Assembly: GCF_030651495.1 (NCBI RefSeq)
Contig: NZ_JAUSFI010000072.1
Coordinates: 1 to 64,000, forward strand
DNA from: Undibacterium sp.
GTDB lineage: Bacteria > Pseudomonadota > Gammaproteobacteria > Burkholderiales > Burkholderiaceae_D
DNA: 64,000 bases
Direction: 5' to 3'
Shown here: positions 37,903-40,764 of the stretch, in pieces
Position numbering within the stretch: position 1 is the stretch's first letter
Layout: each line of letters begins with the position of its first letter
Made by a program: the position numbers and the translations under genes
Notes under the pieces: generated by a model
The model's input: the letters and a program-made list of their open reading frames with translations, nothing else
Databases searched by the model: none
What the model was told of the DNA's origin: nothing

Positions 37903-38730
37903 TTAAGCTGCTTGCTCCAGCCTGACCGGTGTCGCTGCGATGGCATTGAGTTGATCGACGATATCCTGATCAGGCTGCATGGCACGTGCCGGAGGGATCA
38001 CCAGCGTGGTGATTTGCTGTAGTGACGCCGCCGGCAAATCTTTCAGCAAGATAGTATCCATACGCGTCTGTTCTAACGGATGGGTCGCGGCTTCGTACAG
38101 GATCACCGGATGATCGAGTGGATAATCACGCGCCAGCTTATTCACCAGTATTTGCAAGCGCGCCGGGTTGGTATCAAAACGTTTTAGGCTCAGCTCACCG
38201 GCCAGGCCAGGTTGCCACAAGATCAGCAAGGCAGTCGGATCGATCTTGCGTTGGTAAATCATGAACTGGGTAGTCTCCATCGATTGCGCGCCAAACTGGG
38301 CGGGATCAATACCCAGATCGGCGACCAGGCAATCTTCGGCCGAAATACCCGGCTCCATTTGGGCGCTATAGCCTTCGGCACGGGCTTCAAGAATCGCCAT
38401 ATGACCGACACAGGCAAAGACTCCAGGGTGTCCGTAAAAAGCTGCACACACCGTTTTACCGGCGCGCACTTGAGCCAGAATAGTATCAACCATACGGCGA
38501 TACGTATCGCGCCGGCTTTTACCCTCGACATCGCAATCGCTGTAGTAACCCAGTAGGCAAATGTATTCTTTAGCGATACCTTGCAACCATTTGCGTGCAA
38601 AGATATTCGGCACCGCCGCGATCACCACATCCGAAGTTTCGATATAACTTTGCGCTATCGGCGTCAGTTGCCCCGCCATGCGCATGCCCGTACCGACACA
38701 GATCAATTTACCTTGTTTTTTATTTATCAT
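37903..38730 (-). CDS. SonM-like peptide alpha-N-methyltransferase (tetrapyrrole methylase fold; split-borosin type)
   Basis: GKLICVGTGMRMAGQLTPIAQSYIETSDVVIAAVPN..; SRRDTYRRMVDTILAQVRAGKTVCAAFYGHPGVFACVGHMAILEARAEGYSAQMEPGISAEDCLVADLGIDPAQFGAQSMETTQFM; same-strand partner short peptide upstream. Confidence 0.85.
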   Translation of the reverse strand: MINKKQGKLICVGTGMRMAGQLTPIAQSYIETSDVVIAAVPNIFARKWLQGIAKEYICLLGYYSDCDVEGKSRRDTYRRMVDTILAQVRAGKTVCAAFYGHPGVFACVGHMAILEARAEGYSAQMEPGISAEDCLVADLGIDPAQFGAQSMETTQFMIYQRKIDPTALLILWQPGLAGELSLKRFDTNPARLQILVNKLARDYPLDHPVILYEAATHPLEQTRMDTILLKDLPAASLQQITTLVIPPARAMQPDQDIVDQLNAIAATPVRLEQAA

Positions 38731-38771
38731 TTTATCTGACTGATGGAAGTGAAAACGGATTATTGAACGGA

Positions 38772-40523
38772 TTATTGAAATACCGAGACGCGATTGCGCC
38801 CTTCATTTTTAGAGAAATACAGGGCTTTATCGGCTGCCGCCAAGGTATCTTCAAAGCTGAGCAAACCTTGAATACCGCGGCTGGCGATGCCGAAACTGGC
38901 AGAAAGCGGGAAGTGAAAACCGCAGGGAGAAGTATCAATCGAGGCAACCGCAGCGCGACAGCACTCAGTCAAGGCCAACACTTCTGCAGCGCTGGAGCCG
39001 TGCATGCAGATGCCAAACTCTTCGCCACCAAGACGCCCCAGCATAGTCGTTTTACTTAGCTGCGATTTGACGGTGGCGCTAACGGTTTTAAGCACCCAAT
39101 CGCCCACCGCATGACCAAAAGTATCGTTAATATTTTTAAACTTATCCATATCAAACAACACCACGCTCACTGTAGTGCTGGCACTGTTGAATAATTGCGT
39201 CGAGACCGCCATAAAATGCGCCCGATTATAAACCTGAGTCAGCCCATCTATCTGCGATGAAGTGCGGAATAAATTCTTTTGCTGCAAAGTCCTGATCAGC
39301 CATGCCGCAAGTATGCTCAGCAGAATTGCAGCCAGGGCAATGAGCAACAGCAAACGCTCTTTGTTGCGTTGTTGCAGCTTCTTTTCTACCGTCAGTATCT
39401 TGTTTTTTTGTTCCAGCAAAGTCAATTGATTGGCCTTATCCTGCGTATCAAATTTCACGCGCTGATACGCCAGATTTTTTTGCAATTGATCGTCCAGCAC
39501 ATCCTTTTTTAGGGCCAGATTGATGTCGTAGTATTCCAGAGCGCTGGTCAACTGACCTTGTGCCCGTTTAATTGCCGCCATGGTTTCGCTGGATTTTTCC
39601 ATGAGATGAACCACGTGCTCAGATTTTGCGCGCTGGAAAGCTTGCAGACCGTAGTGCTCGGCAAGCGTCAGATGGTCTGCTGTCAAATAAGCGCGGGCGA
39701 TGGCTTCTTCCAGTTGTGTGACGTAATCTGAGTTTTGATTTGTTTCTGAAAATTCATGCAGCAGGGGTAAACCCGCTTTGATGCCTTGTTCACCCCGTCC
39801 GGTATCAATCAAATCGACTGTCGCCAAACTTTTTACAATCAAGCTAATCACTTTTCGGTTGCTTGCATCACAGGTTCGTGTTGCTTCGCTAAGCAAGGAT
39901 TGCGCTTTTTGGCTATCCCCGCGCAAAAAACCAATCTCGATACGATTGGCCAGGCCATAGCACTTTGAAAGTGTATTGACTGCATTTCCCTCTAGCGCAT
40001 ACATGCGATCCGCATAAGTCATGGCTTCATCGTAGGCATGCAAGGAATTAAGCAGAGTAATCGCTGCCTGCAATGTTGTTACTTTCGAGCCCAATTCGAC
40101 CAGATTTGGCAATAACACGATGCTCTGGTTCATTGCCTTTAAAGCACTGGCATGATCGCCAAGAAGAGTATATCCATCGGACAATTGATATAAAAATTTG
40201 ACACGAAATTCTGGATCGTTCACTTTATCGATAAATGATTCAACCAGGCTGACGCTCTCTTTATGCTTTCCCATAAAACTAAGGGAAAGCGCAGAAATAA
40301 AGTAATATCGTCCTCTTTGTTTTTCATTAAATGTTGGTTGAAGCACATGCAATTTTGTAAGTACATCAATTGACTTTTCCGGAGCAGAATTTAGATATTG
40401 GGATGATAGGTCAAGTAATGCATCAACATCGTCTTGCTTTTCAAGAGCGAGGCAAGGCGAAATGCCCATTCCTGTGAGTAGCAGTATGGGCAATATAAAT
40501 CTCAAAATAGTCTGAGACATCAC
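38772..40523 (-). CDS. TPR - transmembrane - GGDEF protein (diguanylate cyclase)
   Basis: Signal peptide, TPR-like helices, TM LLLLIALAAILLSILAAWLI, DGLTQVYNR and GRLGGEEFGICMHG. Confidence 0.9.
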   Translation of the reverse strand: MMSQTILRFILPILLLTGMGISPCLALEKQDDVDALLDLSSQYLNSAPEKSIDVLTKLHVLQPTFNEKQRGRYYFISALSLSFMGKHKESVSLVESFIDKVNDPEFRVKFLYQLSDGYTLLGDHASALKAMNQSIVLLPNLVELGSKVTTLQAAITLLNSLHAYDEAMTYADRMYALEGNAVNTLSKCYGLANRIEIGFLRGDSQKAQSLLSEATRTCDASNRKVISLIVKSLATVDLIDTGRGEQGIKAGLPLLHEFSETNQNSDYVTQLEEAIARAYLTADHLTLAEHYGLQAFQRAKSEHVVHLMEKSSETMAAIKRAQGQLTSALEYYDINLALKKDVLDDQLQKNLAYQRVKFDTQDKANQLTLLEQKNKILTVEKKLQQRNKERLLLLIALAAILLSILAAWLIRTLQQKNLFRTSSQIDGLTQVYNRAHFMAVSTQLFNSASTTVSVVLFDMDKFKNINDTFGHAVGDWVLKTVSATVKSQLSKTTMLGRLGGEEFGICMHGSSAAEVLALTECCRAAVASIDTSPCGFHFPLSASFGIASRGIQGLLSFEDTLAAADKALYFSKNEGRNRVSVFQ

Positions 40524-40545
40524 AATAACGATTAGTTATCGTGAT
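40519..40545 (-). other. Stem-loop between precursor gene and GGDEF gene
   Basis: Minus strand ATCACGATAAC-TAATC-GTTATTGTGAT; 11-bp stem with one G-U pair, spans the GGDEF gene's start codon, no U tract. Confidence 0.6.
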
Positions 40546-40548
40546 TAT

Positions 40549-40764
40549 CTAAAATGTAGCGATGTTTACCAAAATAGATGGAAGTGCATCCTCATTGATA
40601 CCAACCAGAGCCGCCACCTTCTTTTTATCCCCAGACATCAAGGCAGCCTGCTCATCAGCAGTCAATCCAAATGCCGTCATTGCCGCAGTAGGGTCTTTGG
40701 CATGCGCTTCACGGGCTGCCGCATCTTTATCGAGGGCGTTGAGGTAATCTAATAATTTTGACAT
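40549..40764 (-). CDS. Candidate split-borosin precursor peptide, 71 aa
   Basis: MSKLLDYLNALDKDAAAREAHAKDPTAAMTAFGLTADEQAALMSGDKKKVAALVGINEDALPSILVNIATF: helical LigA-like/borosin-binding-like N-terminal part and hydrophobic C-terminal tail; 25 nt upstream of the GGDEF gene in a cluster with the methyltransferase. Confidence 0.8.
   Translation of the reverse strand: MSKLLDYLNALDKDAAAREAHAKDPTAAMTAFGLTADEQAALMSGDKKKVAALVGINEDALPSILVNIATF

Follow-up and report, generated by a model that had tools for sequence, protein, structure and literature searches.

The window analysed here, 64,000 nucleotides of DNA from Undibacterium sp., contains three consecutive minus-strand genes, A, D and M in that order, with a gap of 28 nt between A and D (25 nt if D starts at GTG) and of 41 nt between D and M. 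A (40549..40764, minus strand, ATG start after AAGTGAAAAAA) encodes a predicted borosin precursor of 71 aa; D (38772..40520 on the minus strand and 582 aa from ATG, or to 40523 and 583 aa from GTG) encodes a TPR-TM-GGDEF protein; and M (37903..38730, minus strand) encodes a protein of 275 aa assigned, from phmmer matches and conserved SonM residues, as a SonM-type peptide backbone alpha-N-methyltransferase. Among the named relatives, those nearest to the locus in a species-genome scan were mostly Undibacterium, and no relatives were found in viral contigs. A neighbouring M14 carboxypeptidase gene was rejected as a member of the unit because it belongs to the core genes of the genus (42/44 genomes), while the unit occurs in 18-19/44.

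Assignment of the methyltransferase and its precursor

M was compared by phmmer with solved structures in the PDB, where its nearest match was SonM (7ltc; E=4.2e-81, 51% identity). The fungal enzymes OphMA, dbOphMA and MroMA, in which a homologous methyltransferase domain is fused to the precursor rather than encoded apart from it as here, were matched with E values of 1e-41 to 1e-45, and no cobalamin, siroheme or RsmI enzyme appeared among the structure matches at E<0.001. In SonM the active site is formed by Y58, R67, Y71 and Y93, with F99, E146, W166 and Q167 as lock residues (PMC8429565), and all of these checked residues were conserved in M in a pairwise alignment. Pfam placed M in the generic TP_methylase family only. 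Similarity of M to four further tetrapyrrole-type methylases encoded in the same genome was not significant; pairwise similarities were used for this comparison, and a small TP-methylase tree had long branches. That M is a SonM-type borosin alpha-N-methyltransferase, with the corresponding chemistry, is nearly certain from these comparisons.

The 71-aa product of A matched SonA over residues 1-56 (E=4e-6, phmmer against the PDB), and this match, the genus alignment and the structural model together define a SonA-type leader, the putative borosin-binding domain, at residues 1-55 and a variable core at about residues 56-71 (INEDALPSILVNIATF). Across the genus, mean identity was 66% for the leader, which has invariant positions, 25% for the last ~15 residues and 76% for M. 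A conserved leader followed by a hypervariable C-terminus is what one would expect to see in a RiPP precursor. The model of A was helical over residues 3-54 (mean pLDDT 80), with low confidence in the C-terminal core. Methylation of SonA falls on L63 and I65 (PMC8429565), and the stretch of A that aligns with these positions, and that may be modified likewise, reads SILVNIATF. Pfam returned for A a sub-threshold LigA match, and SonA itself gave the same weak match. No signal peptide was found on A.

Since M matches SonM at E=4e-81, A matches SonA at E=4e-6 and the three genes occur together in 18/44 genomes of the genus, their grouping is not due to chance, and the unit is almost certainly a type IV split borosin of known kind. 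The original prediction of a split-borosin pathway was therefore upheld, by the proximity of M to SonM rather than to cobalamin/siroheme methylases or RsmI, by the SonA-type leader, and by the retention of the 71-aa ORF wherever M is retained, save on one truncated contig. Its description of three same-strand genes with gaps of about 25 and 41 nt was reproduced in coordinates, strand and spacing, the motifs it quoted from M (GTGMRMAGQ among them) were found as quoted, and its reading of the products as a 71-aa peptide, a TPR-TM-GGDEF protein and a tetrapyrrole-methylase-fold protein was borne out.

Several further precursor-like ORFs were observed. An orphan copy of A lies close to a contig end, beside M14, in genome G031, and a lone SonA-like ORF of 88 aa (L145:6147-6413, G004:C17) has no methyltransferase or GGDEF gene visible nearby, the full unit lying elsewhere in that genome. 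Long acidic-tail precursors with a recurring core, such as CPDxVCxxxPAEDE, unlike SonA-type cores, were seen in loci L101-L134 (the second loci of Shewanella, and loci of Xanthomonadales and Rheinheimera).

The GGDEF protein and its conserved pairing with the precursor

Topology prediction for D gave, from the N-terminus, a hydrophobic signal segment, a TPR region (about 25-385, predicted to be periplasmic), a single TM segment (about 391-409) and a GGDEF domain (about 423-577, with GGEEF at 498). The last was recognised by Pfam at E=2e-33 with DxDxFKxxND and GGEEF intact, and by sequence criteria D carries a predicted diguanylate cyclase domain. The product-inhibition I-site is absent from D (window 38772-40520), which has SKTT where most relatives have RxxD, and the cyclase may therefore escape feedback inhibition. 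Only C187 and C217 were invariant in the outer domain among 35-37 aligned D proteins, a cysteine pair that fits a disulfide outside the cytoplasm. The TPR domain was modelled with a pLDDT of 92, and the structural neighbours of the model included peptide-bound TPR proteins, Rap and NprR (bacterial pheromone receptors) among them; the match is generic in fold (TM about 0.6), with eukaryotic LGN first and a designed TPR also ranking above Rap and NprR. At E<=1e-10 the sensor domain was confined to borosin loci in the genus, and the Shewanella genome checked had just two near-full-length relatives of D, both at borosin loci.

The species-genome scan yielded 80 loci, found in Undibacterium, Shewanella, Lysobacter, Dyella, Rhodanobacter, Rheinheimera and Colwellia, among others. 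These loci scored highest against a profile of M's clade, so that the counts given here describe the SonM clade and not all borosins. A same-strand GGDEF gene lay <=1.2 kb from M in 76/80, where chance would place one in about 2% (an expectation taken from 33 GGDEF hits in 4.2 Mb of one Shewanella genome). The remaining four were L077 and L114, cut by contig ends, L094, with its GGDEF gene slightly beyond 1.2 kb, and L070, in which A and M stand beside a divergent GAF-GGDEF-EAL gene. Among the 44 genomes of the genus, 18 had both M and D, one had M without D (on a truncated contig) and 25 had neither (p=2e-11). In one genome with a SonM 100% identical to the protein that was crystallised, M and SonA are followed by a TPR-TM-GGDEF gene immediately after the sonA stop. 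SonM-clade clusters thus normally have the GGDEF gene as their third gene, and a position between precursor and methyltransferase, rather than after an M-A pair, is the usual order in Burkholderiales loci. The earlier suggestion that the GGDEF gene is linked to the pathway gains support from this constant adjacency (76/80 loci; 18 of the 19 genus genomes with M), while its description as an unusual arrangement is refuted by the same 76/80 and by its presence directly after sonA in the archetypal cluster.

The closest characterised system, SonM/SonA of Shewanella oneidensis (PMC8429565; PDB 7LTC-7LTS), resembles the present unit in having a methyltransferase separate from a precursor of ~71 aa, a homologous leader, the same catalytic residues and the GGDEF gene downstream of sonA; it differs in gene order (M-A-D, against A-D-M here), in cores that are unrelated in detail, and in the I-site that D lacks here. 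The gene is partly recognised in the literature, in that one article (PMC11395268) defines a GGDEF domain in the legend to Figure 1, where borosin architectures are drawn. Our literature search, outside which the main surveys (Imani 2022, Cho 2022) lay, returned no paper joining a borosin with a diguanylate cyclase or c-di-GMP and no biological role for split borosins.

Iteration of the precursor profile over every ORF in the 80 loci recovered 98 A-like ORFs, of which none lay on the opposite strand or exceeded 250 aa. An A-like ORF directly preceded 87/97 D genes, with a median A-D gap of 12.5 nt (82 pairs). The methyltransferase gene stood either before or after the A-D pairs, and these were duplicated around a single M; the layouts included MAD (44), ADM (9), MADD (5), MADAD (4) and ADAM (4), as well as ADADM and ADADADMD. 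One methyltransferase therefore appears to serve several precursor-cyclase pairs. The precursor-GGDEF pair, as read from these gene orders, is the tightest unit, conserved across the genus and across orders.

Some loci showed other features. In several Undibacterium genomes (L035, L037, L038, L039 and L042) a second A-like ORF, with a divergent and often longer tail (74-90 aa in total), lies between D and M (A-D-A-M). The unit of one relative, at L028 (G013:C1:188000-199000), looks decayed, with a disrupted precursor frame, a broken GGDEF gene and stops near the end of M. In two Shewanella genomes the son cluster is followed, on the opposite strand, by a TonB-dependent receptor gene (L150:8498-10960 and L099:10940-13426), called by Pfam in L150 and by resemblance in L099.

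Exchange of the output domain and distant relatives

Three class-level relatives (L135:7751-10819, L137:7474-10434 and L138:7883-11131) carry a TPR-TM-hybrid histidine kinase gene in place of the TPR-GGDEF gene, adjoining a SonA-like precursor and a SonM-like methyltransferase, and the TPR regions of these kinases matched D only weakly. Some clades thus have a hybrid histidine kinase in place of GGDEF while keeping a predicted TPR sensor. Five distant class-level methylases had neither a SonA-like ORF nor a TPR sensor, and the partnership therefore seems limited to the SonM clade. In L139, L141 and L143, distant borosin-like methylases follow different ORFs of 61-77 aa; these loci have neither a SonA-like peptide nor a TPR sensor, and transporter-like ORFs lie downstream of the methylase in L139 and L141.

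We also compared similarity of the precursor cores with similarity of the periplasmic domains while controlling for M and GGDEF. The two were correlated, with a partial r of 0.36 in Burkholderiales (permutation p=0.0065) and of 0.63 in SonA-like loci (p=0.0005); in the long acidic-tail group the core-sensor correlation vanished after control for the leader. The test was exploratory, and because the pairs share ancestry, and so are phylogenetically non-independent, and several combinations were tried, this co-variation is suggestive only.

Possible role of D as a peptide receptor and alternative explanations

The sequences show the gene identities, the intact catalytic motifs, the conservation of the A-D pair within the genus and across orders, and the sensor/output architecture. 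Built on these, our proposal is that M would bind the helical leader of A and methylate backbone amides near its C-terminus, a reaction suggested by homology that extends to the catalytic residues. The methylated A, or a methylated C-terminal fragment of it, would then reach the periplasm, where the TPR superhelix of D would bind it, and binding would change the signal passed along the long helix and the TM segment and so set the c-di-GMP output of the GGDEF domain. The peptide would in this case be the ligand, as a self-signal or a pheromone, of a dedicated receptor encoded beside its precursor gene. Methylation, periplasmic export, TPR binding and the direction of the c-di-GMP effect are steps that we infer. 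We consider the whole scheme, in which the methylated peptide of a type IV split borosin would be sensed by a periplasmic TPR receptor setting c-di-GMP, to have an even chance of being correct, and the receptor role of D, argued from linkage, architecture and co-variation, to fall just short of that. The receptor reading is the best mechanistic account, with the A-D linkage, the core-sensor co-variation and the TPR fold resemblance as indirect evidence. Counted against it are the generic TPR fold match, the loss of correlation in the acidic-tail group, the 10/97 D genes that have no adjacent A, and, for the passage of the product to the periplasm, the finding that the conserved unit contains no exporter or protease and A no signal peptide.

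GGDEF proteins commonly sense envelope cues, and D could accordingly be a regulator of the operon or of a lifestyle switch, sensing some other periplasmic cue and using c-di-GMP to time the making or use of the borosin. Such a role is a possibility of some substance, if clearly a lesser one, and it agrees with the indirect nature of the ligand evidence and with the lack of a conserved peptide exporter in the unit. However, D is locked to A and not to M and is duplicated together with A, core and sensor co-vary in two subgroups, and the output can be swapped for a hybrid kinase while the TPR sensor remains, all of which argue against this role. TPR domains are also common scaffolds, and the A-D adjacency with its short gaps suggests coupled synthesis, so that the TPR domain might act in biosynthesis or trafficking of the peptide (as scaffold, chaperone or export dock) while the GGDEF domain or kinase reports flux. 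This is unlikely, as the signal segment and TM segment place the TPR domain beyond the cytoplasmic membrane, apart from M, and SonM and SonA suffice for methylation (PMC8429565). The generic Pfam assignment of M and the sub-threshold LigA match of the peptide would, taken by themselves, allow M to be an ordinary tetrapyrrole-type methylase with an unrelated 71-aa ORF and GGDEF gene as neighbours; this very improbable explanation was refuted by structure matches specific to SonM/OphMA, among which no cobalamin or RsmI enzyme appeared at E<0.001, by the comparison with the TP methylases of the same genome, and by the strict co-occurrence of A, D and M.

As for the peptide receptor favoured here, its TPR domain resembles RRNPP-type Rap and NprR, known binders of short peptides with a TPR superhelix of similar size, by fold alone. 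Rap and NprR are cytoplasmic proteins of Gram-positive bacteria, whereas the TPR domain of D is predicted to lie in the periplasm, with a TM helix linking it to GGDEF. More generally, and with somewhat less than even confidence, we suggest that backbone-N-methylated borosins of the SonM clade may be peptide signals, each with its own periplasmic TPR receptor encoded beside the precursor and with interchangeable outputs, either c-di-GMP synthesis or a hybrid-kinase phosphorelay. If D is such a receptor, split borosins would gain a function that is directly testable in Shewanella oneidensis. If true, this would constitute a Gram-negative peptide-signalling system, would explain the fast variation of the core sequences, and would provide peptide-receptor pairs with backbone-methylated ligands.
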